A DNA stretch of 35,654 nucleotides, taken from NCBI GenBank assembly GCA_031273295.1, contig JAISSD010000064.1, positions 1 through 35,654 of the forward strand. The letters are read 5' to 3'. Position 1 is the stretch's first letter. Each line of letters opens with the position of its first letter. The notes under the pieces were generated by a model, which searched no databases, was not told where the DNA came from, and was given only the letters and a program-made list of their open reading frames with translations. Position numbers and translations under genes: made by a program. The DNA is from Prevotella sp. GTDB taxonomy: Bacteria; Bacteroidota; Bacteroidia; Bacteroidales; Dysgonomonadaceae. Below, one piece after another: positions 2,514 to 34,713 of this stretch.

Positions 2514-3668
2514 TTAATTAGGCCTTTTTAACTCTATACAGAAAACTGTACCCGCTCCCATCTCCGATGATTTCACATAGATTCTTCCCTTGTGATACGA
2601 CTCTATGATACGTTTGGCAAGAGACAGGCCTAGCCCCCAACCCCCTGCTTTTGTGGTATATCCGGGATTGAATACCGTTTTGAACCTGGATTTGGGAATT
2701 CCTTTTCCTGTGTCCCGAATCTCCAGGCTTACCGTTTTACCCCTGTCGGACAGTGTATAAATGATCCTGCCTTGTCCTCCCATTGCGTCCACTGCGTTTT
2801 TAGTCAGGTTTTCCAATACCCAGCTCAACAGGGGCTCGCTTAGGTTGATGCAGGAAGGGGCAGACGGCAGTTGAAGTTCAAAGGTCACTTTCTTTGAAAT
2901 CCTTTTTTCCAGATAGGATACCGACTGTCTTATGATTTCGTTTAGATCTTTTTGTTCCAACAAAGGCGTGGAACCGATTTTAGAAAACCGGTCGGCAATC
3001 TTCTGCAAACGATTCACATCTTTTTCCATGTCGGAAAGAATGGACTGGTCCGCGTTTTTGAGTTTCAGGTATTCCAGCCATGCCAATAATGAGGAAATCG
3101 GCGTGCCCAGCTGATGGGCGGTTTCTTTGGACAAGCCTACCCAAAGGCGGTTTTGCTCCATTCTCATCATTATAAACAAGGCGAAAAAAGCTGTTATCAT
3201 AAAAACAATCAGCACGCCCACCTGTATGCAAGGATATATTTGCAAACGCTTCAACGTGTACGAATCGTCATAATACAGCACATACTGGATGAAGTCTTCG
3301 GCCTCAATGATAATAGGCGCATGCTTTTTCTCGAAATCCTTTGCTTTCCGTTTCAAAAATTCCTGTCCGCCCGTTTCGGGCAGTTCCATATTTGTAGACG
3401 TATGGGAGCCGTCTTTCTTGTCGTATAAAATAACGGGAATGGTGGTATTGCTTTTCAGAACATGGAGAACCAGATTCATATTTGCGCCTTCCGTGTTGCC
3501 GTCCATTTCTTTAATCGCTTCGGCCCAGATCTCAACCTTGTTGCGCTCTTCTTCCGAGAGGTCTTTTACCAGATAATGAGATACGGCAAGCGAGCCGAAA
3601 GCTATTATCATGGCTATTGTCATGAAAAGGTATCGCAATAACATTCTGTTGTTCTCAAACATTTTCAT
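2514..3668 (-). CDS. Membrane sensor histidine kinase (orphan)
   Basis: A 384-residue two-component sensor kinase. A membrane segment at about residues 11-31 and another at about 147-168 flank a small extracytoplasmic region of about 110 residues. The kinase core follows: H-box KETAHQLGTPISS with H185 as likely phosphoacceptor, N-box ENLTKNAVDAMGG (287-298), G1 box DTGKGIP (319-325) and G2 box GWGLGL (343-348). No clear HAMP motif is visible. No response regulator lies next to it, so its partner is unknown. It follows maf by 87 bases on the same strand and may be read from the glsA-glsB-maf transcript. An alternative start, two codons downstream, is possible. Confidence 0.88.
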   Translation of the reverse strand: MKMFENNRMLLRYLFMTIAMIIAFGSLAVSHYLVKDLSEEERNKVEIWAEAIKEMDGNTEGANMNLVLHVLKSNTTIPVILYDKKDGSHTSTNMELPETGGQEFLKRKAKDFEKKHAPIIIEAEDFIQYVLYYDDSYTLKRLQIYPCIQVGVLIVFMITAFFALFIMMRMEQNRLWVGLSKETAHQLGTPISSLLAWLEYLKLKNADQSILSDMEKDVNRLQKIADRFSKIGSTPLLEQKDLNEIIRQSVSYLEKRISKKVTFELQLPSAPSCINLSEPLLSWVLENLTKNAVDAMGGQGRIIYTLSDRGKTVSLEIRDTGKGIPKSRFKTVFNPGYTTKAGGWGLGLSLAKRIIESYHKGRIYVKSSEMGAGTVFCIELKRPN

Positions 3669-3755
3669 GCGGTAAAGGTAATCGTTTTATTCTTAATGTA
3701 TTTCTTAATGAAAAAGATTAATAGTCCGCAAATCCGGTTAAAAAGACGCCTCCGG

Positions 3756-4334
3756 TTAAAATCCTTTTAATTCCCGATACAGCCGTTGTATGGGCAAACC
3801 CATGATATTGAAATAGGAACCCGAAATATGTTCTACCGCGATATAGCCTATCCATTCCTGCACGCCGTATGCTCCGGCTTTATCCAGTGGTTTATATTTG
3901 TTTACATAATATTCTATTTCGTCTTCTTCAAGTTTTGCAAATCTGACTTCCGACGATACGCCGAATGCTTTTTGCTTTTCTTTCGCGCTTATGCAGACCC
4001 CCGTTATCACCGTGTGCGTTTTGCCCGAGAGATTTCGGAGCATCTGTTTGGCGTCTTCGTCATCATAGGGCTTTCCGTATACTTTCCCGTCGAGCAGAAC
4101 GATTGTGTCGGCCGTGACGAGCAGGGTATTGTTTTCCAAATGATCTTTATACGCATCGGCCTTCGCCCTGGCAATGTGGATAACTATGTCTTCGCCTTGC
4201 AGATCATCGGGGTATGACTCGTCTATATCCGGCAGCGTTTTTATTTCGTAGTCGATATCCAGTCCCGACAGTAATTCTTTTCTGCGCGGAGAGTTGGAAG
4301 CCAATATGATTCTGTACGGGGATAAATCAAGCAT
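3756..4334 (-). CDS. maf: Maf-like nucleoside triphosphate pyrophosphatase
   Basis: A 192-residue protein of normal family length. Maf proteins hydrolyse dTTP/UTP or modified nucleotides to monophosphate plus pyrophosphate (house-cleaning). Diagnostic motifs are ILASNSPRRKELL near the N-terminus, VTADTIVLLDGKVYGKP with the catalytic Asp region, the SGKTHTVITGV block, and the C-terminal DKAGAYGVQEW segment with YFNIMGLP. The start codon overlaps the stop of the small upstream ORF as TAATG, suggesting coupled translation. The subfamily (YhdE-type dTTP/UTP versus YceF-type) is inferred as YhdE-like from the GAYGVQ motif. Confidence 0.92.
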   Translation of the reverse strand: MLDLSPYRIILASNSPRRKELLSGLDIDYEIKTLPDIDESYPDDLQGEDIVIHIARAKADAYKDHLENNTLLVTADTIVLLDGKVYGKPYDDEDAKQMLRNLSGKTHTVITGVCISAKEKQKAFGVSSEVRFAKLEEDEIEYYVNKYKPLDKAGAYGVQEWIGYIAVEHISGSYFNIMGLPIQRLYRELKGF

Positions 4335-10656: not shown

Positions 10657-12759
10657 ATGAAAAAAGCGATTCTATCAATGGTTATTGTTGTCGCCGGATT
10701 GTTGTCCGGTTGCAGCAGTGAAGAGAGCGTCTCCAGACCGGAGACAATCGGACAGACGGGTACTTTGACTTTCAGTTTTCCTGTTCCCCGCCGGAGCGTG
10801 ACTTATACTATTGCAGGTGAAACCACAGGCGAAACCGCCGTGGAAGCAACGGAAGATGAAATCAGGATTAATGACGTTACCGTTTACATGTTCCAAAATT
10901 CGGATGACGGAAAGCTGGTTGCAAGGAAAACGGCGTCTGCGGACGAAGTCGGAGCGCGCAAGGTGACATTCGATGTGAACAAATTTGCCGCCACGGGCAA
11001 CGGCAACTATATATTCTATGCCGTTGCCAACGTCAACGGGAATATTACGGACGGTTTTGTGGTTGGCAGTACTACCCTCAACGACTTCACCTCTGCCGTT
11101 GCAACCACCGGAACATCTCCGGTTTCCGGCAGCAACATGTTGATGGTCGGCTATACGGTGATAGACGCCCTGTCTGCACAAACCGATCCTGTCCAGCAGG
11201 TTAATTTGCGTCATCGTGTGGCCCGTTTCGACATAGACAACCTGACTGCCGACAGCGATCCGGCCAACAACAATCTGGTACCGGGTCAAGAAGGTTACAA
11301 CGCAAACGAAACGTTCTTTGAAATAACAAGGATCCATGTTTTGAATACCAAACCGTCGGGTTATCTCACTGCCGAAACCAACGGTCAGGCGCGCGTTCCT
11401 GTTTCCGGCAGGGTATCTTTTAAAGGCGCCAATGCGATTGATGTTTCCGGTATTCCGGGTATGAACGGAGGGGCCGTTGAAGGCGCGTTCTATCTTTGGC
11501 CGGGAGTCCTGGCTGACAGGGATCATTACCTTGAGGCGGATTCTACCGCTATCGAGATTGAAGGTGTTTACTCCGGCGACGGCAAGGCCGAGCTGTTTAC
11601 CGTTTATCTGGATACCGAAAGGCGCATCGAGGCCAACAAGAGGTACACTCTGAAAGTCCAGCGCATCAGCCAGACGGCTTTGACCTTCGAGTTAACGGCT
11701 TCCGACTGGGGAGAAGGCAATGCCGCCACTGCCATTCCGGTGGTTGGCGACGGATCTCTTGCATACGGGGATTTCAAGCTGCTTGTTGGCGGGGCAACGG
11801 AAAGCGTTCAGGTAAACGATATCGTCGACTTGTCGGACAACAAGGGAGACAGTGACAACGAGTTGAGGTTCCATACCGAGGGCGACGCCAAGGCAACGGG
11901 CGCTTTGACGGCTACACTTGATTTGACATTGGGCGCCGGTTATGCTGTAAATGACGTCACGCCCGTTCCGGAGGGCGATCCTGTGGTCACCTATTCCATC
12001 GGCAAGGTCAGACAGTATTATAAAATCATATTGCCGAAGACGACTTACCCGATTGAGGGAACACTCACGATAGAAGACGAGAGTACTCAGCAGAAAAAAG
12101 AATTTGCCGTCACTTCGCTTCCGGATTACGAAGACACGGGGTTCAAGCCTGTTCTTGTCGGGGGCAAGTATTGGGCTCCTGTCAACGTAGGGGCTAGTTC
12201 CACTACTTACAGCGAGGGTTTGGCCGGTTGCGGCTATTATTTTCAATGGGGACGCAGTTACGCAAAGTTTACTTACGATAGCACAAATAGCGGTACCGAC
12301 TTGCTGTCAGGTCCTTTATCCGCTGGGGATGCCGAAACTAACGCAGACAAGTTTATCACCAACAGTTCTGTAGCGACTTTTTATGACTGGTTATCCCCTC
12401 AAAATGACGGTTTATGGACTACTGTTGATCCGCGGGGTCCGTGTCCTGCCGGTTGGCGGGTTCCTACCGAAACGGAGTTGTTGGTACTGAAAACCAAGTA
12501 TGTCTCCACTAATTTCGACGTAGAGGGCGATAAGCGTTTGCGGATTCCGGGCGACGTTAATGGCGAGTTCTTGTATTTGCCTGCCAACGGCGGTCGCGAT
12601 ACTGCCGGTGAGTGGAACAGTCAAAGTACGGTCGGCCGCTATTGGTCGTCTAGCGTTGACGGTAACGGTGCGAGGAGGTTGTACTTCCGATCCAATTCGT
12701 CCTCTATAGACACGTACACTCGCGCGTACGGCTACTCTGTGCGTTGCCTCCAAGAATAG
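10657..12759 (+). CDS. Fimbrillin-like lipoprotein with C-terminal FISUMP domain (copy 1)
   Basis: A 700-residue surface lipoprotein. The ATG at 10657 gives a type II signal peptide (MKKAILSMVIVVAGLLSGC) with the lipidated Cys at position 19. The frame open back to 10558 lies in conserved non-coding leader. The N-terminal half has the fimbrillin/Mfa pattern (TLTFSFPVPRRSVTY, INDVTVYMFQN, KVTFDVNKFA, NYIFYAVANVNG, LRHRVARFDIDNL). The last ~200 residues are FISUMP-like (KYWAPVNVG, GCGYYFQWGR, DWLSPQNDGLW, GPCPAGWRVPTETEL, YWSSS, YGYSVRCLQE), a C-type-lectin-like fold. It is probably an adhesin or pilus-associated protein. The final 120 bases resemble a variable region (see findings). A paralogue lies inverted at 32617-34713. 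Confidence 0.82.
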   Translation: MKKAILSMVIVVAGLLSGCSSEESVSRPETIGQTGTLTFSFPVPRRSVTYTIAGETTGETAVEATEDEIRINDVTVYMFQNSDDGKLVARKTASADEVGARKVTFDVNKFAATGNGNYIFYAVANVNGNITDGFVVGSTTLNDFTSAVATTGTSPVSGSNMLMVGYTVIDALSAQTDPVQQVNLRHRVARFDIDNLTADSDPANNNLVPGQEGYNANETFFEITRIHVLNTKPSGYLTAETNGQARVPVSGRVSFKGANAIDVSGIPGMNGGAVEGAFYLWPGVLADRDHYLEADSTAIEIEGVYSGDGKAELFTVYLDTERRIEANKRYTLKVQRISQTALTFELTASDWGEGNAATAIPVVGDGSLAYGDFKLLVGGATESVQVNDIVDLSDNKGDSDNELRFHTEGDAKATGALTATLDLTLGAGYAVNDVTPVPEGDPVVTYSIGKVRQYYKIILPKTTYPIEGTLTIEDESTQQKKEFAVTSLPDYEDTGFKPVLVGGKYWAPVNVGASSTTYSEGLAGCGYYFQWGRSYAKFTYDSTNSGTDLLSGPLSAGDAETNADKFITNSSVATFYDWLSPQNDGLWTTVDPRGPCPAGWRVPTETELLVLKTKYVSTNFDVEGDKRLRIPGDVNGEFLYLPANGGRDTAGEWNSQSTVGRYWSSSVDGNGARRLYFRSNSSSIDTYTRAYGYSVRCLQE
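12637..12756 (+). other. Putative DGR-type variable region, copy 1
   Basis: Aligned codon by codon with 32620-32739 (minus strand), framework codons such as TGG-TCG-TCT, AAT-TCG-TCC, GGC-TAC-TCT and CGT-TGC-CTC-CAA are identical even at synonymous sites. Interspersed codons differ mainly at bases 1 and 2 (AGC/ACC, GAC/GCC, TAC/ACC, TCC/GGC, ACT/GAT, TAC/CGC), as expected if AAC or AAT codons of a template were mutated at adenines. It lies at the very 3' end of the gene, the usual place for such regions. Confidence 0.55.
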
Positions 12760-12768
12760 ACAACAGGA

Positions 12769-12840
12769 GAATTAAGAATTAAGAATTAAGAATTAAGAAT
12801 TAAGAATTAAGAATTAAGAATTAAAAATTAAAAATTAAAA
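12769..12840. repeat. 7-bp tandem repeat (gaattaa)n, degenerating to aaattaa
   Basis: About ten consecutive units begin 9 bases after the stop codon of fimbrillin gene 1. The last units change from gaattaa to aaattaa and run into gaagaat repeats. The array is slippage-prone. Confidence 0.9.
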
Positions 12841-12894
12841 ATGAAGAATGAAGAATGGGAATGAAAAATTAAGAATACGGATCAATTAAAATAT

Positions 12895-16716: not shown

Positions 16717-16926
16717 ATGGAACTGAATAGAATAAAAGAAGTCCTTGATGAAAGAGGTATCAAGCAGACGTGGTTGGCAGAGAAACTCGGCAAAAGTTTC
16801 AGTACGATGAATGCGTATTCCTGCAACAGGAAACAGCCGACTTTGGAAATGCTGAACAGGATTGCAGATATATTGCAAGTGAGCGTGAAAGAATTGATAG
16901 TAGACGATAAAACAACAAGAAAATGA
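16717..16926 (+). CDS. XRE-family HTH regulator (controller-like)
   Basis: A 69-residue Cro/C1-type helix-turn-helix protein: MELNRIKEVLDERGIKQTWL, AEKLGKSFSTMNAYSCNRKQ (recognition helix region), PTLEMLNRIADILQVSVKEL. It consists only of the HTH domain. The stop overlaps the methyltransferase start as ATGA (16923-16926). This arrangement resembles the C-proteins of restriction-modification systems, which time methyltransferase and nuclease expression. That role here is inferred from position. It may bind around 16640-16700 and could also affect the divergent Cys-rich gene. Confidence 0.85.
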   Translation: MELNRIKEVLDERGIKQTWLAEKLGKSFSTMNAYSCNRKQPTLEMLNRIADILQVSVKELIVDDKTTRK

Positions 16927-19900
16927 GTGATAATTTATTAGATAAAATTATTGAAGACTTTAATATTAATGATTTAAGATCATTTTTAGGTGGTAAATTA
17001 TCCGGCTTTCGTGGAGAAATAATGGATTATTCCGATTTTTTGAATGTAAATCAACGCCAATATTCCAGGGTATGCAAAATAGGCGAAACAACATTAAAAG
17101 GCAATGAACATATTATTGCCATTGTTGCAGAAACTGCCGATTCATTAACCGAACGCAGTGGCAAGAAAATGCAATACGAAATTGCCAAAACGATTTTAAA
17201 AACGGAAATAGCCGATTTGGCTTTCTTTGTTTTTTATGATGCTGATGGCAATTTCAGATTCAGTATTATCCATATTCAAAGAGAAAAAGACAAGACCCAT
17301 TATTCTTCTTTCAAACGATATACCTATTATGTTTCCAAAGATCAAACCAATAAAACGTTCCGGGAACAAATAGGAAATTCGAATTTTGATTCTGTTGATG
17401 GAATAATCAAGGCTTTCAGTGTCGAGAAACTAAATAAGGAGTTTTATGATGAATTGTCAAACTGGTATTTTTGGGCAAAAAGTAAAGTGAAATTTCCCGA
17501 TGATGTGGAAAAAAATGAAGAAATACGAAATGCTATCAACGTAATCAGACTGATAACTCGTTTAATTTTTGTTTGGTTCTTGAAGCAAAAAAAACTTATA
17601 CCGAACGAATTATTTGATTGTGAGGAAATTAAGACTATCATTAATTTTTCGGATAAAACAGAAAGTACCTATTATAAAGCCATACTCCAAAACTTGTTTT
17701 TTGCAACCTTAAACACAGAAATGACAGAAAATAAACGCAAATTTGTCAATAGACAATATGGAGTTCAGGGATTTTACAGATATGAGCGTTTCTTTTCAAA
17801 TAAAGAGCGTTTCTTGGAATTAACGCGCTGTATTCCATTCTTAAATGGAGGTCTTTTTGAAAATTTAGATAAAAATGTCGGTGAACCGAATGAATTGCGA
17901 GTGGATTGTTTTTCTAATCGTATAGATTTAGAAAACAAATTAGTTGTTCCCGATAATCTTTTTTTCGGAGAAACAGGAAATATTAATTTGAATGAAGCAT
18001 ACGGAGATAGAAATCATACAAACGTGAAAGTAAGAGGAATTATTGATATTCTGAAAAGTTATAATTTCACAGTAGAAGAAAACAATTCTATCGAAGTGGA
18101 AGTAGCCCTTGATCCCGAATTATTAGGTAAAGTTTTTGAGAATCTGCTCGCCAGCTATAATCCGGAAACCCAAACTACTGCCCGTAAACAATCCGGTTCG
18201 TTTTATACACCTCGCGAGATAGTTGATTATATGTGCGACGAGTCATTATTCATCTACCTAAAAGAAGCAACAAAAGGTACGATCTCGGATGAATACTTGA
18301 GAGGGCTTATTGCTTACAATAATGCAGAAATCCAATTAGATGACGCCGACCGCAAATTATTGATTGAGTCTATTGATAAATGCAAAATACTTGACCCGGC
18401 ATGTGGTTCTGGTGCATTTCCAATGGGTATACTTCAAAAACTGGTTTTTATGCTTCAAAAACTTGACCCGAAAAATCAACAATGGAAGATTATACAAGAA
18501 AACAGGGCAAAAGAAGAAAATAAAGAAATGATTGAACGATTGGAAAAAGATAAAGAACTTGTTACCCATATAAGTTCTTTACCAGAATTGAAGGCTCAAG
18601 CATTAAAGGAATTAGAATTAAGGCTCATGCAGATAGAATATGCTTTTACAATGAGTACCAACGAATTGGATTATGCACGTAAACTCTTTTTAATTGAAAA
18701 CTGTATTTATGGAGTTGATATTCAACCCATAGCCATTCAAATTTCGAAACTTCGTTTTTTTATTTCATTACTTGTTGAACAAGAAGTGAATAATAAATCT
18801 TCTAATAGAGGGATTGTTCCTATGCCCAATATGGAAACAAAATTTGTGGCTTCAAATACGTTAATCAAATTGAATCAACCAAAGCAGACTCTAATCAAAC
18901 CTCAGGCATTGTATCCATTGGAAGCTAAATTGCAGGAAGTGCGACATCGTCATTTTTCAGCTCGAACGCCAGATACGAAGAAAAAATACAGACAAAGAGA
19001 TGAAGAACTTAGAAAACAAATTGGCAAGGTATTGGAAGATGCCGGTTTCCCGCCGACTTCTGCAAAACAAATTGCCGGTTGGGATCCTTACAATCAAAAT
19101 ACATTCGCGAATTGGTTTGATTCGAAATGGATGTTTGGCGTTGAAAAGTTTGATATTATTATTGGAAATCCGCCTTGGGGAGCAAAATTAACTAGTTATG
19201 AAAAAGAATTATTCAAAGAAGATTACAAAGAAATTGATTCCTCTACCCCCAATTCATTCGCTTATTTTGTTGGATTGGCATTCAAAAATTACGCTACAGT
19301 GATATCATATGTCCTTCCCGATAGCATTTTGATTAAAGATTTCAAAAAAACGCGCAAACTTATAAAAGATAATTTACGTGAAATTCATTGGTATGAAAAT
19401 TCTGGATTACCTAATGATTTGAAACCATTTGTATATGTTGACCATGATGTTTGTGTGCTAATTATCTCTTCCGAAAACCAAAAAAATCTCAACTATACAT
19501 TACATAGATATAATAGAAATGAAAAGAAAATCATTGAAACAAGTTATGAGAAAAAAAAGGAATCTATCATAAAAAAGGAATTTGAGTACACATTTAATCT
19601 TTTAGTACATGATACAGATTTAGAAATATTGAATCATTTAGAGAAGTTGCAAGAAGTCGGTAATGTTATGCAATGCCATGAAGGTATTCGTACGGGTAAT
19701 AGTAGAGAAGTATTATTTTCTGATATAAATAGAAATCAATATTGCAAACCATTATATTATGGAGGTGGAGCAGGTGATGTTATTAATAATTATTACAGTA
19801 GACGTTTTGGTTGGTTTGTAGATTATCGAACTGACATTATTGACAAATCAAGAGGGCTTTATGCTTCATTACGAAATGAAAATATATTCATTTTCCCCAA

Positions 19901-20513
19901 AATTTATATAACAAGAACTGGAAATCCATTTAAGGCTTTTTACGATGATAATGCATACGCTTCCAATAATTTTTTTTCTCTCCAGCATAAAAATTACTCG
20001 GAGAACACGCCTGAATTTTTAAAGTCAATATTGCCTTTCATTATTTCCAAAGTTGCTCAATATTACATTAGAAAATTTGCGGCACCACGATTGGGAAACA
20101 CATTTGTGGAAACAAAAATTTATCATCTATTAAAATTTAAAATTCCTCATGTTTCCGAAACACAACAAGAACTTATTATCACACTCGTTGATATTATCAT
20201 ATTTCTAAAGAATAATAACAATAAAGAAATATCAACCACAGTATCCAATGAAATTATTGCAAACTATTTTGAAAAGGTTATAGATGCCTGTGTTTATGAA
20301 CTCTATTTTGAAGATGAAATAAAATCATCTAATACAGATGTACTGTCTTTATTACAAGAAGCACTATCTAAGTTAGTTGCATTACCGATTGAAGAGCAAA
20401 TCAGTCAATTATATAGCGAATTGAATGATTATAAAAATGAAATTCGTAACAGAATCATTTTGCAAGAAACTCGTAGTGAAAGTGTATCACAAATCATTAA
20501 ATCTATGCACTGA
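16923..20513 (+). CDS. Large N6-adenine-type DNA methyltransferase (Eco57I/type IIG-like), Hma-type system
   Basis: A 1196-residue protein. The SAM-binding motif I is DPACGSGAF (D491 to F499), preceded by SGSFYTPREIVDYM, the TPR-I/V block typical of type IIG and PglX-like enzymes. The catalytic motif IV is NPPWG (749-753), an NPPW-type adenine-N6 motif. A long insertion (about 520-620) separates the two. The N-terminal ~430 residues are not recognised. I see no confident PD-(D/E)xK nuclease in them, although a divergent one cannot be excluded. The C-terminal ~350 residues probably form the target-recognition part. It is followed, with a one-base TGATG overlap, by an ATPase and then a PLD-helicase, matching the helicase-methylase-ATPase (Hma) defence layout. 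Base composition is much more AT-rich than mnmE. Confidence 0.85.
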   Translation: MSDNLLDKIIEDFNINDLRSFLGGKLSGFRGEIMDYSDFLNVNQRQYSRVCKIGETTLKGNEHIIAIVAETADSLTERSGKKMQYEIAKTILKTEIADLAFFVFYDADGNFRFSIIHIQREKDKTHYSSFKRYTYYVSKDQTNKTFREQIGNSNFDSVDGIIKAFSVEKLNKEFYDELSNWYFWAKSKVKFPDDVEKNEEIRNAINVIRLITRLIFVWFLKQKKLIPNELFDCEEIKTIINFSDKTESTYYKAILQNLFFATLNTEMTENKRKFVNRQYGVQGFYRYERFFSNKERFLELTRCIPFLNGGLFENLDKNVGEPNELRVDCFSNRIDLENKLVVPDNLFFGETGNINLNEAYGDRNHTNVKVRGIIDILKSYNFTVEENNSIEVEVALDPELLGKVFENLLASYNPETQTTARKQSGSFYTPREIVDYMCDESLFIYLKEATKGTISDEYLRGLIAYNNAEIQLDDADRKLLIESIDKCKILDPACGSGAFPMGILQKLVFMLQKLDPKNQQWKIIQENRAKEENKEMIERLEKDKELVTHISSLPELKAQALKELELRLMQIEYAFTMSTNELDYARKLFLIENCIYGVDIQPIAIQISKLRFFISLLVEQEVNNKSSNRGIVPMPNMETKFVASNTLIKLNQPKQTLIKPQALYPLEAKLQEVRHRHFSARTPDTKKKYRQRDEELRKQIGKVLEDAGFPPTSAKQIAGWDPYNQNTFANWFDSKWMFGVEKFDIIIGNPPWGAKLTSYEKELFKEDYKEIDSSTPNSFAYFVGLAFKNYATVISYVLPDSILIKDFKKTRKLIKDNLREIHWYENSGLPNDLKPFVYVDHDVCVLIISSENQKNLNYTLHRYNRNEKKIIETSYEKKKESIIKKEFEYTFNLLVHDTDLEILNHLEKLQEVGNVMQCHEGIRTGNSREVLFSDINRNQYCKPLYYGGGAGDVINNYYSRRFGWFVDYRTDIIDKSRGLYASLRNENIFIFPKIYITRTGNPFKAFYDDNAYASNNFFSLQHKNYSENTPEFLKSILPFIISKVAQYYIRKFAAPRLGNTFVETKIYHLLKFKIPHVSETQQELIITLVDIIIFLKNNNNKEISTTVSNEIIANYFEKVIDACVYELYFEDEIKSSNTDVLSLLQEALSKLVALPIEEQISQLYSELNDYKNEIRNRIILQETRSESVSQIIKSMH

Positions 20514-22123
20514 TGAAAAAAATAGATAAAATAAGAATCAAAAATTTCAAAGCATTTCCTGATTTGCAGGAATTTGAATTGAAAGGGAAGAATTTGCTTG
20601 TATATGGTAACAATGGTTCAGGAAAATCTTCACTCTATTGGGCATTATATACGTTACTACAAAGCAGTGAAAAGACAGAGGAAAGAGTAAATGATTATTT
20701 TGCTGTTTATGATGAAACGAATGAACAAACTTTTCAAAGTTTGCGTAATGTTTTTTCTCAAGAAGCAGAATCTTTTGTTGAAATTGAATTGCAGGGAGAA
20801 CCATCAATTAGAATTTCACAAGGGAATATTGCCAATGTAAAAACCGCAAACGTGAAAGAAGCAAATAAAGCCAGCGACTTTATCAATTACAAACTATTAC
20901 ATAATTTCTATAATTCAACTCATAAAAGCCAATTAAATTTGTGGGAAGTGTTTAAGAGGGATATTTTTCCATATTTCTCTTATTCCGGTGTAACAACTTA
21001 TTCGGAATGTTTGGAAGATATAGAAACGAATATTCAGTACGATGCTAGGACAAGAGGATATTCCGCTTTCTTATCTAAAATAGACTCCTTTAACACAAAA
21101 GTGGAAGAATTGCTTATGCGTGTTTCTATGCAAGCGAATAAAGTTTTGAAGGATAAATTCAACATTACCGATATTATTATTAAGTTGGAATATGATACAA
21201 AACTTGTTTGGAGTGGTTCTTTCAATATTCCTTCGATAAAACTATGTGTCCAAGTGGAGAGCAACGGAATCTTTATCACAAACCACCGTCCACAATCATT
21301 TTTGGATGAATCGGCATTAACCCGTATAGCAATATCTATTCGTTTGGGTGCACTATTTACTCGTCTTGCCTCAAGCGAATGGAAAATATTGGTTTTAGAT
21401 GATATGCTTATCAGCTTGGATATGTCAAATAGGATGACTATTTCAAAGATTATTTTGGATGATGATGATTTAAAAGACTTTCAAAAAATTATACTTACTC
21501 ATGACAAAGGCTTTTTTGATATTCTCAAATCGAAAACAAATACCTCCGAATGGGAATATTTGAAATTTTCAAAGAATGAACATCAGATAGATTCAAAACC
21601 GGAAGTTAAGCTTGATAAAACAGAGTTGGAAAAAGCCAGAGAAGTTTTTGAGGCAAATGAATTTGATGCTTGTGCTAATTATTTGAGAAAAGAGACTGAA
21701 AAAATTCTACGCAAATATTTAAACAAAGATTTAACAGGTATTGAAAGTGAATTTGAATCTTTATCACAGTTAATGAATCAAGCAAAAACTCAAGTAGAAC
21801 ACCAAAGGTTATGGCACTTTCAGAACATTGTTAACAAAGAAGAATTGCCTGTAGAGAAACTATTGGAAGATTTTGAGAATGATGTAAGTTTAGATGCAAA
21901 TATTAAAGGGCGTTTATATGGATTGAAAAGGGAACTTTTAAATTTTGCAGTGACCGAAAATCAGAGAAATAATAATGCCGAAAATATTTTAAAAGAACTT
22001 GAAAGTATAAAATATAGAATATTAAATCCCGGCTCTCATGGAAATTCGATGCCCTTTTATTCACAGGAGTTAAAAGAAGCCATTGAAATTGTAGAGAAAC
22101 TTTATTTGTTATTAAACCCATAA
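20513..22123 (+). CDS. ABC/SMC-like ATPase (RecF/OLD-type head), Hma-type system
   Basis: A 536-residue protein. The N-terminus KIRIKNFKAFPDLQEFELKG followed by Walker A GNNGSGKSS (32-40) is the SMC/RecF/OLD-type nucleotide-binding head. Walker B is ILVLDDML (D296, D297), and an H-loop follows in ILTHDKGFFD. The LDEALTRIAISIRLG-like segment SFLDESALTRIAISIRLGAL near residue 260-285 fits the ABC signature region. The last ~170 residues are charged and helical (EKAREVFEANEFDACANYLRKE) with no visible Toprim nuclease, so it is an ATPase partner rather than an OLD nuclease. It lies between the methyltransferase (1-base overlap) and the helicase (4-base gap). Confidence 0.82.
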   Translation: MKKIDKIRIKNFKAFPDLQEFELKGKNLLVYGNNGSGKSSLYWALYTLLQSSEKTEERVNDYFAVYDETNEQTFQSLRNVFSQEAESFVEIELQGEPSIRISQGNIANVKTANVKEANKASDFINYKLLHNFYNSTHKSQLNLWEVFKRDIFPYFSYSGVTTYSECLEDIETNIQYDARTRGYSAFLSKIDSFNTKVEELLMRVSMQANKVLKDKFNITDIIIKLEYDTKLVWSGSFNIPSIKLCVQVESNGIFITNHRPQSFLDESALTRIAISIRLGALFTRLASSEWKILVLDDMLISLDMSNRMTISKIILDDDDLKDFQKIILTHDKGFFDILKSKTNTSEWEYLKFSKNEHQIDSKPEVKLDKTELEKAREVFEANEFDACANYLRKETEKILRKYLNKDLTGIESEFESLSQLMNQAKTQVEHQRLWHFQNIVNKEELPVEKLLEDFENDVSLDANIKGRLYGLKRELLNFAVTENQRNNNAENILKELESIKYRILNPGSHGNSMPFYSQELKEAIEIVEKLYLLLNP

Positions 22124-22127
22124 TATA

Positions 22128-25100
22128 ATGAGCAACAACTTCATAACAAACACTCAACAAAATACAACCGTAAAAAAGCGATTGGAAAAATTGATACCCG
22201 CCTGTGCCGAGTTGAAATTTTTAGTTGGATTCTTTTATTTTTCCGGTTGGCAGGAAATCTATCATTCCTTGAAAGAGAACAATAAAGCGGTGTTAAAGGT
22301 GTTGGTTGGTTTGCAGGTAGATAGTTATTTATCCGGTATCATCGAATATGGAATTAATGAAGAAAATATTATCCTAAGCCATGAAGAACAATTTGCCCGT
22401 TTTATGCAATCGCTCGGTAAAGCCATTAACAATGCGGACATGGATACCGAAGAATTTTATACTCAATTGGATTTCTTTATTCAAATGTTGCAGGAAAACA
22501 GATTGATTATCAAGAAAACGCAGCAACCCAACCATGCGAAACTGTATCTTTTTCGATTAAACGATGAATCAAAAAACTTGTTCAATTTAGCGGGAGAATT
22601 GATAACGGGAAGCAGCAATCTCACAAAAGCCGGACTACAGGGGCAGGAAGAATTTAATGTCGAAATCCGGGATTATGGTTTTGAAATTGCGGAAAAATAT
22701 TTTGACGCCCTTTGGATTTCAGCTATTCCGATTACCGAAGCGGATAACGGAAAAAACGCAATTATTGATTTTCTTCGTAATAAAAGTATCGGAACGGAAA
22801 TTACGCCCTTTGAAGCTTATACATATGTTCTGAAAACAATCGTTGATATGCAGGAACAAAATAGGTTAGGCAATAGCATTGAGGGTTTATTGGAAGAAAA
22901 CGGTTTTACAAAATATAAATATCAATTAGACGCTGTCAATCAAGCCATAAACATTTTGAACGAATACAACGGTGTAATTATTGCCGATGTTGTAGGACTT
23001 GGTAAATCTGTTATTGCTTCACTCATAGCCTCCCTGATAAACAAACGCGGACTTGTTTTATGCCCTCCAGGGTTGATGGGGAATAAAAAAGACAATACGG
23101 GATGGTGGGAATATGTCAATAAATTCAGATTATATCAATGGGACGTGGACAGTTCCGGTAATTTGGAAGCAGTTGCTGAAAGTTTAAGCAAATTTGATTA
23201 TGGCTATGAAGTTATAATCATTGATGAAGCCCATCGATTCCGTAATCAAGATACGGCGGCTTATGAGGCATTAATGAATATTTGTATTGGGAAAAAAATT
23301 ATTTTATTGACAGCCACTCCATTCAACAACTCACCATCCGATATATTTTCATTACTCAAATTATTTATCATACCCGGAGCATCCGGAATAACGCTTGAAG
23401 ATGATTTGGAAGCCAGATTTAATGGTTATAACAATGAATTTGACAATCTTTCATACATCCTGAAAAATTGGAATTCGCAAAAGTTGGATAATCGAATGAT
23501 TGCAGAAAGAAAATACAAAAAACTTTTTGATAAAAATCTGCCAATTGATTTAACATTGGTAAGGATGCGAACGCAAGAAATAGCAACTGAAATAAAAGAT
23601 ACAATAAGTCCGGTAGTTATTCGTCGCAACCGTATAGATTTAAAAACAGATTACGAATATTCAAAAGAGATTGCTCAATTATCGGACGTTAAAGACCCGG
23701 AGGAACTCTTTTATGAATTAACGCCCGAACAGTCAGAGTTCTACAATCGCGTAATCTCTCATTGTTTTTCAGTCGGCGGAATGTTTACCGGCGCTATTTA
23801 TCAACCCGCACTATATGAGCAAAAAACGAAAGATGAGGAAAAATTGACGGAAGAGGAAAACCGGACATTTATTCAACAACAGAACTTATTCGATTTTATG
23901 AGAAGATTGTTGGTGAAGCGATTTGAAAGTTCATTCGGAGCGTTCGATGAAAGCATTAAACGGTTTATTAAAGTTCATAAAATGGTTCGTTCATTTATTC
24001 AAAATTCAGGCAAATATGTATTGGACAGAAAAATCATAGAGGACATATATGATGAGAAAAGCGACTCCTATACCGATGAAGCAATTATTACTGCTTTGGA
24101 ACAATTTGAGGAAAATGCAAAATACAAAACAAAACCTAAAAACACAATTATTTACAGCATTGATAAATTTTACAATAAAGATTTATTTCTACAAAATATT
24201 GATAACGATATAAATTTGTTTGAAGGAATAAAGGCGGAAATTGACCGGCTACAACTTACTCAAAACGACCCGAAGAGAAATGTTTTAAATGCAAAATTCA
24301 ACGAAATACTGACTGAAAACAAACATCCGAAAAAGAAAATTATTGTTTTTACAGAATATGTAGATACTGTTCTTCATCTAAAAAACTATTTTGAAAAGAA
24401 AAATAATCGCATTCTTTTTTGCGACGGAACATTTAATAAGACTTTTGCAAATACATTAAATTCGGACTTTAATGCCAAAGCAGAAATCGTATCGGATGAT
24501 TATGATATATTGATAACCAGTGACAAATTATCCGAAGGATTCAATTTAAATCGGGCAGGTGCAATTATTAATTATGACATTCCGTGGAATCCAACCCGGG
24601 TTATTCAACGGGTTGGACGTATCAATCGTATGAGCGTAAAGGTTTTTGACGAACTTTTCATCTATAATATTTTCCCGACTGAGAAAGGCGCCAATATAAT
24701 TAAGAGCAGAGAAATTGCCTCACAAAAAATGTTTCTCATTCATAATGCATTGGGAGAAGATGCCAAAATATTTGATTCGGATGAAGAACCCACAGCGAGT
24801 GGTTTATTTTCTAAAATGAATCAGAATCCTGAAAATGAAGAAAATATAAGTGTCGAAACAAAAATAAGGAACACTTACTACGAAATCAAAAACAATCATC
24901 CGGAAGTTATTGAAAAGGTTCAAAACTTTCCAAATCGCACGAAAACAGCAAAACTTCACACAATTGACAATACAGTCATTGTACGCAAAAAAGGATTGGC
25001 ATTGTTTTACATTTTAGACAAACTCAATCAAGACAAACATCAAACCGTTGAGATTACATTAGAAGAATTAATTTCAAATATAGAATGTAAGATAGAGGAA

Positions 25101-25493
25101 CCCAAAGTACCCTTGGACAAATCATTTTGGGAATCGTATGAAATTATTAAAAAATACATACCTAAACATCGCAGTGGAGCCGGAAATATAAAATCATTAG
25201 AACAAAAGGCTATAACTGCATTAAAAGATTTATTGAAAAATCACAAAGAACTGCTTAATCATCAGCAAATTGAATTTGTAAATACATTAATTTACGATAT
25301 TCGAAAATATAAAACGCTTCCGGATTACACGCTTAGACGTTTGTCGCTTTCCGGGAAAAAAGATGAACATGAAACTTTGGTTGAGAATATTAAGGACATT
25401 AACGCAAGGCTTAAAAATAATTATCTTGATAAGATAAGAGAACGTATATCTATGATTAAGGATGATGTTATCATTGCCGTAAGAAATAAGTAA
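22128..25493 (+). CDS. PLD-nuclease/SNF2-type helicase fusion, Hma-type system
   Basis: A 1121-residue protein. An N-terminal phospholipase D-like domain has HAKLYLF (H136, K138) followed by ITGSSNLTKAGL (about 159-170), the single HKD-type motif of PLD nucleases. A superfamily 2 helicase follows: motif I VVGLGKS (288-294), motif II DEAH (366-369), motif III TATPFNN (395 onward), and motifs V-VI TSDKLSEGFNL ... NYDIPWNPTRVIQRVGRINR at about 795-840. The C-terminal ~250 residues are not recognised. PLD-helicase fusions occur in several antiphage systems. With the methylase and ATPase just upstream, the best fit is an Hma system. The HKD domain could be the effector nuclease (inference). Confidence 0.87.
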   Translation: MSNNFITNTQQNTTVKKRLEKLIPACAELKFLVGFFYFSGWQEIYHSLKENNKAVLKVLVGLQVDSYLSGIIEYGINEENIILSHEEQFARFMQSLGKAINNADMDTEEFYTQLDFFIQMLQENRLIIKKTQQPNHAKLYLFRLNDESKNLFNLAGELITGSSNLTKAGLQGQEEFNVEIRDYGFEIAEKYFDALWISAIPITEADNGKNAIIDFLRNKSIGTEITPFEAYTYVLKTIVDMQEQNRLGNSIEGLLEENGFTKYKYQLDAVNQAINILNEYNGVIIADVVGLGKSVIASLIASLINKRGLVLCPPGLMGNKKDNTGWWEYVNKFRLYQWDVDSSGNLEAVAESLSKFDYGYEVIIIDEAHRFRNQDTAAYEALMNICIGKKIILLTATPFNNSPSDIFSLLKLFIIPGASGITLEDDLEARFNGYNNEFDNLSYILKNWNSQKLDNRMIAERKYKKLFDKNLPIDLTLVRMRTQEIATEIKDTISPVVIRRNRIDLKTDYEYSKEIAQLSDVKDPEELFYELTPEQSEFYNRVISHCFSVGGMFTGAIYQPALYEQKTKDEEKLTEEENRTFIQQQNLFDFMRRLLVKRFESSFGAFDESIKRFIKVHKMVRSFIQNSGKYVLDRKIIEDIYDEKSDSYTDEAIITALEQFEENAKYKTKPKNTIIYSIDKFYNKDLFLQNIDNDINLFEGIKAEIDRLQLTQNDPKRNVLNAKFNEILTENKHPKKKIIVFTEYVDTVLHLKNYFEKKNNRILFCDGTFNKTFANTLNSDFNAKAEIVSDDYDILITSDKLSEGFNLNRAGAIINYDIPWNPTRVIQRVGRINRMSVKVFDELFIYNIFPTEKGANIIKSREIASQKMFLIHNALGEDAKIFDSDEEPTASGLFSKMNQNPENEENISVETKIRNTYYEIKNNHPEVIEKVQNFPNRTKTAKLHTIDNTVIVRKKGLALFYILDKLNQDKHQTVEITLEELISNIECKIEEPKVPLDKSFWESYEIIKKYIPKHRSGAGNIKSLEQKAITALKDLLKNHKELLNHQQIEFVNTLIYDIRKYKTLPDYTLRRLSLSGKKDEHETLVENIKDINARLKNNYLDKIRERISMIKDDVIIAVRNK

Positions 25494-25513
25494 GAACAAA
25501 GACAAAATGGAGT

Positions 25514-25693
25514 ATGTGGAAAGACAGTGAAACAAATATAGACCTTTTATATTTTGATTATTTAGTATATGTTACTAAAAAAATAATATTGGACGATAAA
25601 TTAACATCATCAACAATTGGCATTTATGGCGATTGGGGTAGTGGAAAATCCAGTTTGATAGATATGGTAATGAACAATTTAAAACAAAAATAA
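25514..25693 (+). pseudogene. qatA: QatA-like KAP P-loop NTPase, truncated to 59 residues
   Basis: The frame starts MWKDSETNIDLLYFDYLVYV and carries the KAP-type Walker A segment IGIYGDWGSGKSS (residues 35-47). It then stops after MVMNNLKQK. A full QatA has several hundred more residues, including Walker B. Here the stop is followed after a single base by the qatB ATG, so nearly all of the ATPase has been lost while downstream coupling is kept. There is no frameshift within the remaining codons. It may be a decayed gene, or a short peptide may still be made to allow translation into qatB. It begins 20 bases after the helicase stop. Confidence 0.75.
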
Positions 25694-25694
25694 T

Positions 25695-26582
25695 ATGGGA
25701 ACTTCAAGTATGTACGGCGGGCCTAATCGTTCTCCTTTGTTGCCTTCTGATTTTAACGATGAGGGTGGAAACACAGCCACGCCTAATCAACCGGAGAATC
25801 CGGAACAAACTTCAGATACTAATTCACCTGATGAAGGAAAAACGCCTTCACAAAAACTAAAAGAAGATAATTCTCCTTCACAAGAATTATCTGATCAACC
25901 TCAATATAATACTTGGCAGCAGGCAAAAAGTTCTATGTCAAGATATGCTTCGGGAAAATCAAGTCGAAATGGAAAAACAAGAGCGATTTCCGGTTATGTC
26001 AAAGGACATGGTGGAGCAGGCAATGCCGCCAAGTCTGCCAAATCGGCAATAAGAACAACCATCAAGATTGGGGATTTCTTTGGTGGTATATCAAAAAAAG
26101 GAATAAACCAAGTGAATGAATATAAAATTCAATTTGAAGGAAGAAAACCAAAAGAAATCTTAAATGATATTATAAATATACTTGCACCGATTCCGGATTC
26201 AAATGAAAATGCCGTAGCTCGAAAGGCGTTGATAAATACGATGTTTATTATCTATGAAAAATTTGAAGACGAAAAAAAAGACATATCATTATTGGACGTT
26301 CTTGATTCTACTATTTCGGAACTGCTTATAACAAAATACATTGAGACATACATATATGAACGGTTGATAAATGAGGTTGGCAGTAGAATTGAGAAAAAAT
26401 CTGAAAACTGTTCGGCTGCTGCAAAAATTGAAAAAGAGATACGTGAATATATAGAAACCAAAGTATCTACTACGCTGAAAGACAAGTCTTTTACAATGAT
26501 AAATTCACAAACGAATAATATCCATGTTTTGGTTGAAGGATTATATAAACAGTGCTATAAAGTTTTGGAGGATCAATTATGA
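25695..26582 (+). CDS. qatB: QatB-like antiphage protein
   Basis: A 295-residue protein with no known fold assignable by eye. The N-terminus MGTSSMYGGPNRSPLLPSD is the feature I associate with QatB proteins. A disordered Pro/Ser/Asn-rich linker (about 25-90) follows, then a Gly/Ala-rich stretch (GYVKGHGGAGNAAKSAKSA) and a helical C-terminal region. QatABCD is an established four-gene antiphage system (KAP ATPase, unknown QatB, QueC-like QatC, TatD-like QatD). The gene order and the QueC/TatD neighbours make the call. The start is one base after the truncated qatA stop, and the end overlaps qatC by 4 bases (ATGA). Confidence 0.82.
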   Translation: MGTSSMYGGPNRSPLLPSDFNDEGGNTATPNQPENPEQTSDTNSPDEGKTPSQKLKEDNSPSQELSDQPQYNTWQQAKSSMSRYASGKSSRNGKTRAISGYVKGHGGAGNAAKSAKSAIRTTIKIGDFFGGISKKGINQVNEYKIQFEGRKPKEILNDIINILAPIPDSNENAVARKALINTMFIIYEKFEDEKKDISLLDVLDSTISELLITKYIETYIYERLINEVGSRIEKKSENCSAAAKIEKEIREYIETKVSTTLKDKSFTMINSQTNNIHVLVEGLYKQCYKVLEDQL

Positions 26583-32616: not shown

Positions 32617-34713
32617 CTATTTTTGGAGGCAACGGACAGAGTAGCCACGCGAACGATCGCGCGCAAGCAGACTGGACGAATTGCCATTGAAGGTCAACCT
32701 CATAACGCCAGTACCGGCAACGGTAGACGACCAGTAACTGCCGTCCACACCTCTATCAATCCACGAACCGTCACTATTACGGTAGCCGGCGGCAGGCAGA
32801 TAGAGGGCGCCGCCAACACCGGTGACTGATACACAGTTATTGGAGACAGGGCTAAGCTTGTTTTTCAGGACTAACAACTCTGCTTCAGTTGGAATTTTCC
32901 AGCCATTGGGACATGGGCCTTGAGCCTTCTCGCCCGACCACAAAGCGTTATCCTGAGGACTTAACCAGTCATTGGGCGCTTCACTGGTGATAATAAATTT
33001 ATTTTCGTACTCCTCAACAGGAGTCTCTGCGGTAACAGGGCCCTCGTAAGTATCCCCCACGCTGTTGTAAGTAAACGGAACATTGCGTCCCCACTGGAAA
33101 ATATAACCGCATCCGGCAAGTGCGCCTTCTTCGTATGTGATAGAAGTCGCTCCAACATTCACGGGAGCCCAATATCTGTTCTCGACGCCTGAACCATAGT
33201 CGCCCTCGACAAGAACAGGCTCGTAATCCGTATTTTCGTATTTCGGAACGGAGGTGACGGCCAGTTCCTTGTAAAGCTCTGTTTTCTCGTCTTTTATCGT
33301 GAGGGTACCCTCAATCGGGTAAGTCGTCTTTGGTAAAATGATTTTATAGTACTGTCTGACCTTGCCGATAGAATAGGTAACAACCGGCTCGCCGTCCGGA
33401 ACGGGAGAGATGACATTTGAAGCATAACCCGTTCCTAAAGTCATGGCAAGTTTAGCCGTCAAAGCGCTGGTACCATTGCTTTCACCCTCGGTATAAAATC
33501 TTAGCTCATTGTCGCCAGTATTGGCCGACAGGTCGACGGTATTGTTTTCTACCGGTGTGCTGTCTACTGCTCCGCCGGCAAGAAGCTCGACGCCGCCATA
33601 TATAAATGATCCGTCAGTAGCCGGTTTGGCTATAACTTCGTCCCCGTCACCCCAACCGGAGGGAATCAGGCTGAACGTCAAGGTCGTCTGGTTGATACGC
33701 TGAACTTTCAAGGTGTAACGCTTGTTAGCATCGATATATTTTTCGGATTCCAGAAGGACTGTGAGTACTTTAGGATTGTTGTCGCCGGAATAAATCCCCT
33801 CAACTTCAATGGCCGTGGAACCCTCGTCCTTGTAGTGATTCTTGTCGGCCAGTTTTCCAGGCCAAAGGTAGAATGCGCCCTCGACAGGGACTTCGTTGAT
33901 ACCGGATATAATGGAAACATCGATCGCTTTGTCGCCTTTCAAAGATGCCTTGTCGGTCAAATCCGGACGGGTATCCGTGTTGTCTTCGGCAGTGAGGTAA
34001 CCGGACGATTGGGTATTGATCACGTGGATTTTTGTTATCTCAAAGAATGTTTCATCCGGATTGTAATCATCGTGACCCGGTTCCAGGTTGTCATTGTTCG
34101 GATCATCATCGGCAGCAAGGTTGTCGATGTCGAAACGGGCTACGCGGTGACGCAGGTGAATTGTCTGGACAGGATCGGTTTGCGTGGACAGGTTGTCTAT
34201 CGCTACATATCCTGCCATCAGCATGTGGCTGCCTTGAATCGGTTCGGCGCCGGTATCGGTTGTAACGGCAGTCGTAAAGTCGTCGAGAGTGGTACTGCCC
34301 ACAACGAAGTTATCGGTGAAATTGCCGCTGGCGTTGGCAACGGCGTAAAACAGATAATTGTCAGAGCCGGTGGCAAAGTCGTTTACATCGAAAGTAACCG
34401 AGCGGGCGCTGGCCTCGTCCGCAGACGCTGTTTTCCTTGCCACCAGCGTTTCCTCGTCCGGAACGCCCGAATTCTTGAACATGTAGACTGTTACGTCGTT
34501 AATTTCGATTTCGCCGGCTATTGCAGGAACGGCGGATTCCGGTTCGGTTGCATCGCCAATCGCATAAGTAATACTCTGACGGGGAGCGGGAAAACTGAAA
34601 GTCAAAGTCCCTGTCTGACCAACTGTCTCCGGTCTGGAGACGCTCTCTTCACTGCTGCAACCGGAAAACAACCCGGAAGCAACAAGGATTACTGAAAGAA
34701 TAGATTTTTTCAT
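32617..34713 (-). CDS. Fimbrillin-like lipoprotein with C-terminal FISUMP domain (copy 2)
   Basis: A 698-residue paralogue of the protein at 10657-12759 in the opposite orientation. The lipoprotein signal is MKKSILSVILVASGLFSGC with Cys19. The next ~15 residues (SSEESVSRPETVGQTGTLTF) are almost identical in the two. The fimbrillin-like half has INDVTVYMFKN, SVTFDVNDFA, NYLFYAVANASG, HLRHRVARFDIDNL and AFYLWPGKLADKNHY. A shared VTYSIGKVRQYYKIILPK block precedes the FISUMP domain (RYWAPVNVG, GCGYIFQWGR, DWLSPQDNALW, GPCPNGWKIPTEAEL, YWSSTV, GYSVRCLQK). The start at 34713 replaces an upstream in-frame start at 34764 that lies in leader DNA conserved between the copies. It is a likely outer-surface adhesin. 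Confidence 0.82.
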   Translation of the reverse strand: MKKSILSVILVASGLFSGCSSEESVSRPETVGQTGTLTFSFPAPRQSITYAIGDATEPESAVPAIAGEIEINDVTVYMFKNSGVPDEETLVARKTASADEASARSVTFDVNDFATGSDNYLFYAVANASGNFTDNFVVGSTTLDDFTTAVTTDTGAEPIQGSHMLMAGYVAIDNLSTQTDPVQTIHLRHRVARFDIDNLAADDDPNNDNLEPGHDDYNPDETFFEITKIHVINTQSSGYLTAEDNTDTRPDLTDKASLKGDKAIDVSIISGINEVPVEGAFYLWPGKLADKNHYKDEGSTAIEVEGIYSGDNNPKVLTVLLESEKYIDANKRYTLKVQRINQTTLTFSLIPSGWGDGDEVIAKPATDGSFIYGGVELLAGGAVDSTPVENNTVDLSANTGDNELRFYTEGESNGTSALTAKLAMTLGTGYASNVISPVPDGEPVVTYSIGKVRQYYKIILPKTTYPIEGTLTIKDEKTELYKELAVTSVPKYENTDYEPVLVEGDYGSGVENRYWAPVNVGATSITYEEGALAGCGYIFQWGRNVPFTYNSVGDTYEGPVTAETPVEEYENKFIITSEAPNDWLSPQDNALWSGEKAQGPCPNGWKIPTEAELLVLKNKLSPVSNNCVSVTGVGGALYLPAAGYRNSDGSWIDRGVDGSYWSSTVAGTGVMRLTFNGNSSSLLARDRSRGYSVRCLQK
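32620..32739 (-). other. Putative DGR-type variable region, copy 2
   Basis: This is the counterpart of 12637-12756. Framework codons are shared even at synonymous sites, while about 18 interspersed codons differ, mostly at bases 1 and 2. Just upstream in the same domain the copies differ at many synonymous sites, so the terminal segment behaves differently from the rest of the gene. Confidence 0.55.

Follow-up and report, generated by a model that had tools for sequence, protein, structure and literature searches.

Two FISUMP lipoprotein genes of a Prevotella sp. draft genome with variable 3' ends of probable diversity-generating retroelement origin

The lipoprotein genes of the window

The stretch of DNA analysed here (the window) is contig C168, 35,654 bases long, of a Prevotella sp. 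draft genome (Dysgonomonadaceae; GCA_031273295.1) that comprises 4,168,051 bases in 312 contigs, with a completeness of 98.26% and a contamination of 2.48%. It encodes two paralogous FISUMP lipoproteins whose 3' ends most likely derive from the activity of a diversity-generating retroelement (DGR). Copy 1 (10657..12759, forward strand) encodes a protein resembling type V pilus tip adhesins, with a lipobox LLSGC, and copy 2 (32617..34713, reverse strand) encodes its paralog, with a lipobox LFSGC, both lipoboxes being read by eye.

The architecture recognised in the window proteins, a fimbrillin-like region combined with a FISUMP domain, is present according to Pfam and NCBIfam. In copy 1, the N-terminal fimbrillin-like region of Mfa1/FimD type (10657..11391, forward strand) reaches E=5.2e-13 with the NCBIfam model NF052322 (FimD tip adhesin) and E=1e-10 with NF038041 (Mfa1), neither match attaining the curated cut-off; with the Pfam family P_gingi_FimA it scores 26.6 bits, above the cut-off of 21.4. 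The corresponding region of copy 2 (33928..34713, reverse strand) matches NF038041 and NF052322 (each E=1.7e-13, both below the curated cut-off), Mfa2 with 27.9 bits, above the cut-off of 21.2, and P_gingi_FimA with 20 bits, below its cut-off of 21.4. The C-terminal Fib_succ_major (FISUMP) domain, PF09603, is located at 12373..12750 (forward strand; E=7.7e-7, 30 bits, below the cut-off of 33.9) in copy 1 and at 32626..32997 (reverse strand; E=2.9e-8, 34.6 bits, above that cut-off) in copy 2; no sequence match for the variable C-terminal domain was found in the PDB. In the list of open reading frames (ORFs), inspected by eye, no other pilus genes lie beside either gene and both look solitary. 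Each of the two proteins is probably a tip-adhesin-like subunit of a type V pilus, a location suggested by known systems.

Each gene ends in a DGR-type variable region (VR), namely VR1 at 12580..12759 (forward strand) and VR2 at 32617..32796 (reverse strand). The search of the genome for reverse transcriptases (RTs), with 19 of 19 candidates scored, lists none on C168, and a DNA search with the template repeat TR1 described below (40 of 63 candidates scored) gave only the two VRs in the window. Since neither an RT nor a template was found there, the window genes would be remote targets, served in trans.

Comparison of the two window copies

The initial annotation, made from the window alone, had pointed to a DGR-like segment at 12637-12756, compared with 32739-32620 in the other copy (40 codons). 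This span corresponds to the 3' two thirds of VR1, homology to the template beginning further upstream, at about 12580 in copy 1 and about 32796 in copy 2. The announced difference at some 18 interspersed codons is real, 17 of the 40 differing in amino acid. The predicted concentration of changes at bases 1 and 2 has the right direction but not the expected strength, as 10 of these 17 codons retain base 3, with 12, 12 and 7 differences at bases 1, 2 and 3, respectively. The near identity of framework codons at synonymous sites was overstated, since 5 of 23 same-amino-acid codons differ over the 40 codons. The freer synonymous divergence upstream was borne out over the whole segment (34/74 codons differing upstream against 6/30 in the segment, Fisher p=0.015). 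Furthermore, of the codons that differ in amino acid, 19 of 28 retain base 3 in the whole segment as against 26 of 64 upstream (p=0.023), and among 98 windows of 40 codons taken upstream in this pair, 2 retain it as often as the 40 codons above.

The footprint read from the two copies was thus only partly confirmed: the contrast points in the right direction, is weak from two sequences and becomes strong once the whole family is aligned. Being significant yet weak, it would not by itself carry the claim of a DGR. At this level, the same differences could have arisen without any DGR, by positive selection on paralogous surface proteins together with gene conversion between copies. Adaptive divergence of binding faces is common, the surface family is large and paralogous, and the two-copy evidence (p about 0.02) is weak enough to accommodate such an origin; the data that weigh against it come from elsewhere in the genome and are given below.

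Reverse transcriptases and template repeats

DGR-type RTs, which the initial annotation had not seen in the window and proposed to seek elsewhere, are encoded in the genome by four complete genes (on contigs C41, C152, C154 and C68) and by five genes cut at contig ends. The C-terminal parts of the latter (C104, C108, C310, C84 and C38) share 89-97% DNA identity with one another and 78-82% with the C41 gene. Cut RT genes would be expected where near-identical repeats collapse in short-read assembly and, because the sister RTs are cut at contig ends, the stretches upstream of them are unseen in the assembly. RT remnants are also present on C258, C227, C97 and C51; on the first three of these, the last ~60 RT codons are joined to the same ~105-base leader, forming a shared repeat that carries the remnant.

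The best PDB match of the RT profile is 8ub7, 'Reverse transcriptase' (E=2.9e-44), which we take to be the RT of the Bordetella phage DGR. The motifs IGNLTSQ and YVDD are invariant in the 10 aligned RTs (four from this genome and six from relatives), and IGNLTSQ fits the DGR RT motif (I/V/L)GxxxSQ named in PMC3521204. In a positive control, a pair of template repeat and VR was detected at 9 of 11 loci with related RTs, including C68, with 9-17 mismatches at A and at most one other per 60 bases. When the same scan was run for each template base, pairs were obtained for A (on either strand) at 9/11 loci, for G at 2/11 (L143 and L146, both also paired for A) and for C at 0/11; an A-to-G pair read from its variable side would give the two G pairs. 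Under a slightly looser rule, an A pair was found at 15 of the 30 named RT loci covered, out of 80 fetched, loci above 9 kb having been cut to 7 kb or less.

A template repeat near a DGR-type RT, as anticipated, was found on a contig other than that of the window. This repeat, TR1 (locus L068, about 673-855, contig C41), lies 1.7 kb upstream of the RT in a frame of just 81 codons and reads PAAGNRNYSNGSWNNRGTNGNYWSSTASGTNARNFNFNSGSSGMGTNNRGNGFSVRCLQE. It is followed by a 297-aa ORF, which has no family match in Pfam, NCBIfam or PHROGs, and then by the 409-aa RT (2549-3778). AT-rich intergenic repeats of the type AATTAAGAATTAAGAATGAAG were observed beside one window gene (12775-12880) and beside the template (L068 100-240, 880-1160 and 2300-2480).

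The template on C68 points to targeting in trans. Compared with the 3' end of its neighbouring gene, this template differs at 13 of 41 A sites and at none of 142 others; compared with remote genes on C225, C115, C224 and C137, it differs at 15, 13, 17 and 15 of the 41 A sites and at 1, 1, 1 and 2 of the 142 others, respectively. The non-A identity of its products is therefore 98.6-100%. One template would thus write into several distant genes (five targets on five contigs), as clean an indication of targeting in trans as sequence evidence gets. Selection does not predict that targets on five different contigs should depart from a single repeat almost solely at its A's, nor that the hypervariable codons should coincide with AAC/AAT of an extragenic repeat beside a DGR-type RT.

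In all, 13 template-like repeats were identified in the genome stretches. Nine of them stand on contigs that yielded no RT, and one such contig is 58.7 kb long. These stand-alone repeats, each with at least 13 AAY codons (Y, pyrimidine), are on C261, C49, C121, C95, C167, C203, C160, C57 and C289, and several have a common leader and trailer sequence. On C261, C49 and C121, with no RT on the contig, a distance of 0.3-1.5 kb separates the template from an upstream frame that holds a matching VR, and template and VR differ at 32/56 A and 15/121 other sites (C261), 21/56 and 17/129 (C49) and 28/55 and 13/104 (C121). No matching VR was found within 1.8 kb upstream of the C203 template and, for C95 and C167, the contig covered by this local test ends ~145 bases upstream of the template. 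As the C289 repeat is embedded in a 261-codon open frame and several templates are partial, some template-like repeats may be variable regions or decayed copies.

Short gene-less cassettes, consisting of a conserved leader, a variable segment and a conserved trailer, were also observed, in arrays around the DGR RT of C154 (L069 1408-1620, 4796-4990, 8720-8930 and 9140-9253) and near that of C152 (L070 13128-13310, 13546-13731 and 15310-15426). They are possibly a reservoir or decayed targets.

Codon footprint of the FISUMP family

Further FISUMP genes with the same 3' end, which the initial annotation had suggested seeking, form a 48-member family in the 4.17-Mb genome. A FISUMP-domain protein search of the genome gave 76 matches among the best 150 of 162 candidates, and the 48 members with the C-terminal segment were grouped as one family by C-terminal sequence. 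The codon alignment comprises 43 genes, the members on C263, C129, C216, C3 and C180 being omitted. Columns with an entropy above 1.3 bits at each of bases 1 and 2 and below 1.0 at base 3 (footprint columns) account for 12 of the 58 tested in the C-terminal segment versus 1 of 139 upstream, the latter lying 4 codons before the segment.

At this family level, the proposal of adenine mutagenesis of AAC/AAT codons is supported, as 11 of the 12 footprint columns coincide with TR1 codons for Asn (AAY). Put differently, 11 of the 14 TR1 Asn columns have the footprint, against 1 of the 46 other TR1 columns (p=1.2e-8). At the 14 Asn columns, 540 of 602 codons end in C or T, compared with 423 of 670 at 16 upstream columns of equal variability, and the Asn counts include column 231, which has no third-base constraint; in the window copies, base 3 is a pyrimidine at 12/14 and 13/14 Asn columns. 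Over all 48 VRs, mean column entropy is 1.46 bits at template A and 0.72-0.85 bits at C, G or T (p=1.2e-10). Mismatch to TR1 is A-biased in 43 of the 48 VRs at p<0.05 and in 15 of 48 after Bonferroni correction.

Origin of the window variable regions

The window copies show the same bias. Relative to TR1, VR1 differs at 21/44 A and 36/142 non-A sites (p=0.005) and VR2 at 21/44 and 36/139 (p=0.006). The family VRs closest to TR1 are C291:2544 (A 19/44, other 13/142) and those on C131 (17/44, 13/142) and C247 (15/44, 17/145). The idea of one common template for both window copies was not borne out, as TR1, the sole assembled template of the family, has only ~74% non-A identity with them. No second template of the family was obtained, since the DNA search with TR1 (best 40 of 63 candidates) and a search for the template-like pattern gave TR1 alone. 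Among the candidates considered, the C112 and C300 matches are gene-less remnants by eye and the C261 template belongs to another VR group; clustering of VRs by framework, tried as a way to infer missing templates, returned a single tight group, TR1 with C291, C131 and C247 (8-11% of framework sites differing).

Several observations weigh against a DGR origin or fail to discriminate in its favour. The 36/142 and 36/139 non-A differences of the window copies compare with practically none expected of a fresh product, and the A bias of neither copy passes Bonferroni correction over 48. Across the family, 5 of 48 VRs lack an A bias at p<0.05 and, outside the TR1 group, the nearest neighbour of a VR differs at 13-33% of framework sites. 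The whole-family synonymous contrast is modest (same-amino-acid codons differing in 24892/68340 cases upstream and 7312/24529 in the segment) and was therefore not used as main evidence. Finally, the mix of A, G, T and C at variable columns is not sharply separable from that at variable upstream columns, so that the mutation spectrum is not decisive.

As no assembled template is close to the window copies, either a gap in the assembly hides the template that they derive from or the copies are older products. The second case corresponds to relict VRs: the window copies would have been written by a DGR in the past and, after loss of the template or of the target signal, would now change by ordinary mutation. 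Such a history, which overlaps with the favoured one and differs from it only in present activity, is possible though somewhat doubtful. It would account for the ~74% non-A identity to the only assembled family template, when fresh products in the same genome reach 98.6-100%, and for the failure of the search to find a template in the window. It fits less well with the third-base constraint at variable codons, which is largely intact in both copies, and the five sister-type RTs (78-82% DNA identity to the C41 RT) cut at contig ends indicate that a matching template may exist. Whether active or relict, the variable regions of both window genes are probably of DGR origin, to which we assign a probability of about 0.88; the interpretation put forward initially is thus upheld by RTs, a template and a coinciding footprint found at the level of the family.

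Variable regions across the genome

A profile of the variable segment gave at least 150 matches in the genome, all with E<=2.4e-10 (best 150 of 256 candidates). A census of VRs and templates, with segments accepted at E<=1e-6, covered 249 fetched stretches rather than the whole genome, so that its counts are lower bounds. It yielded at least 165 distinct segments, of which 154 were variable-region-like and 11 template-like according to a cut that we set at 13 AAY codons. Among the 154, one segment is part of a C154 template, so that 153 VRs remain; manual addition of the two C154 templates that contain a stop gives the 13 templates mentioned above. The open frames around the 153 VRs have at least 300 codons in 85 cases, 150-299 in 40 and fewer in 28, these lengths being lower bounds because the stretches were cut.

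Compared with the best assembled template, the 152 comparable VRs keep at least 80% of non-A sites in 82 cases, 85% in 46, 90% in 14 and 95% in 6, and the pooled mismatch rate is 0.495 at A versus 0.194 at C, 0.194 at G and 0.180 at T. A Bonferroni-significant excess is found at A in 74 of 152 VRs and at C, G or T in none. Picking the best template by non-A identity favours A bias in the former count; with the template picked by total identity instead, the A excess is significant in 62 of 152. That the mismatch excess is confined to template A, with none at C, G or T, is a further feature not predicted by selection, and we regard an origin without any DGR as very improbable.

The large count could in principle stem from strain mixtures or chimeric contigs rather than from the repertoire of one cell. 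The assembly is indeed fragmented (312 contigs, with many gene copies at contig ends), its contamination is 2.48%, and a few segments are near-duplicates (16 pairs, templates included, have an exact 40-mer in common). However, completeness is 98.26%, and clustering of flanks at 90% identity, performed before the C154 template piece was removed, gave 151 downstream clusters among 153 VRs with a usable flank and 135 upstream clusters among 148. As the clusters are nearly as many as the VRs, nearly all VRs are distinct loci rather than variants of a few, and such an artefact is unlikely. With well over a hundred DGR-marked gene ends (last 60 codons), the DGR repertoire is unusually large for one genome.

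Relatives and genomic neighbourhood

In a search of 101 genomes (this one and 100 relatives) with the same profile at E<=1e-10, this genome has 62 matches (62/62 scored), the next ones 29, 20 and 11, and 67 of the 101 none. A close relative of the FISUMP family (E<=1e-22) occurs in one other of 101 same-family genomes, G064, as a single copy that is 51% identical. Three of its neighbours score above the cut-off, namely a clostripain-family protease, a DUF3868 protein and an Mfa2-type anchor, and a FimA-like ORF scores just under its own. The homologue lies inside a type V pilus-like operon, on a stretch that also encodes a phage-type integrase and a relaxase (L145, G064:C31, 413-1807, 4581-12543 and 16799-18067) and is a possible mobile source of the window family. 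A search of G064 for an RT of this kind, run without a control in that genome, gave no match. FISUMP-domain scans of collections of genome contigs and viral contigs, from which near relatives may be excluded, gave no relative.

Between the two lipoprotein genes, the window contains a defence island (16923-28598) with a type IIG-like restriction-methylase, an AAA ATPase, a PLD/SNF2-type helicase and homologues of QatB, QatC and QatD, followed by a 457-aa protein (28615-29988) with a strong match to the PADLOC candidate family PDC-S05.

Proposed mechanism and known systems

The favoured DGR origin rests on sequence comparison, that is, on the RTs, the templates, the A-specific mismatches, the targets of one template on several contigs and the family footprint on Asn codons, while retrohoming itself is presumed in this genome from known DGRs. 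An error-prone RT would copy template-repeat RNA, misreading adenines, and the cDNA would replace the last ~180 bp of a target gene. As only template adenines would be misread, Asn codons AAC/AAT would become NNC/NNT and could never become stops. In the C-terminal FISUMP domain, the residues contacting a presumed ligand would be re-drawn in this way. The window genes would be two of some 150 gene ends written by several RT/template sets, and a missing sister template, upstream of the RTs cut at contig ends, may have served them.

At the scale of the genome, we lean towards a pooled DGR, with at least 150 dispersed VRs, templates mostly apart from RTs and a number of RTs that would serve all of these in trans, in which the gene-less cassettes of C154 and C152 may feed full-length adhesin genes by recombination. 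Such an arrangement would resemble an antigen repertoire rather than a single cassette. The DGR of Bordetella phage BPP-1 is one compact cassette with the accessory gene Avd; the present system is presumably akin to it in RT type, A-specific rewriting and C-terminal target, while for the 297-aa ORF next to the RT of C41 no family match was obtained.

The following comparisons hold for the portions of the literature cited. A human gut DGR target with Fib_succ_major and Mfa2 domains was described by Ye 2014 (PMC4159848) and, like the window genes, it combines this domain pair with a lipoprotein signal, a C-terminal variable region and changes at template adenines. It is, however, one metagenome protein, whereas 48 related genes are present here in one genome, those of the window without a nearby template or RT. 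DGR-diversified type V tip pilins of Bacteroides were reported by Macadangdang et al. 2024 (as cited in PMC12632263). In Thiohalocapsa PB-PSB1 (PMC10907252), nine DGR loci with 15 targets were found in 7.95 Mb and the targets were proposed to be conflict-system sensors. As in the present genome, several RT/template classes coexist there and some remote targets are best explained in trans, whereas here some 150 VR segments occur in 4.17 Mb and the window family consists of fimbrillin-like lipoproteins. Similarly, 121 apparently DGR-diversified genes, remote targets included, were described over 21 cyanobacterial genomes (PMC7517822), where paralogous C-terminal lectin-like domains are likewise dispersed as remote targets, although on signalling-type proteins and not on fimbrillin-like lipoproteins. 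Yan et al. 2019 (PMC6642488) described 'highly repetitive' DGRs, in which single templates have 'a dozen or even hundreds' of VR copies. Their Pseudomonas example, the only one compared here (two further genomes are named), has 91 TR-VR pairs, termed atypical, with few A-to-N changes and 21 merged VRs in one giant adhesin gene, as opposed to the dispersed genes of the present genome.

In the literature searched, most subscription papers lying outside it, we found neither a genome with more than 100 A-specific DGR-type VRs in dispersed paralogs nor a report of many templates without a nearby RT. DGR-diversified tip pilins are thus known already; the novelty lies in the scale and in templates that have no RT close by. 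The A-mismatch VR segments of this single 4.2-Mb genome are about ten times as many as the 15 targets of PB-PSB1, the best-studied of the multi-target DGR genomes compared here (PMC10907252). These results suggest that RT-centred DGR surveys miss targets, a point that Roux et al. 2021 (PMC8144416) stated for remote targets. In summary, this genome offers a case in which to study the mutual recognition of RT, template RNA and target in trans, the means by which such a large number of hypermutable genes stay functional in one cell, and the possible use of pooled adhesin repertoires by some Bacteroidota.

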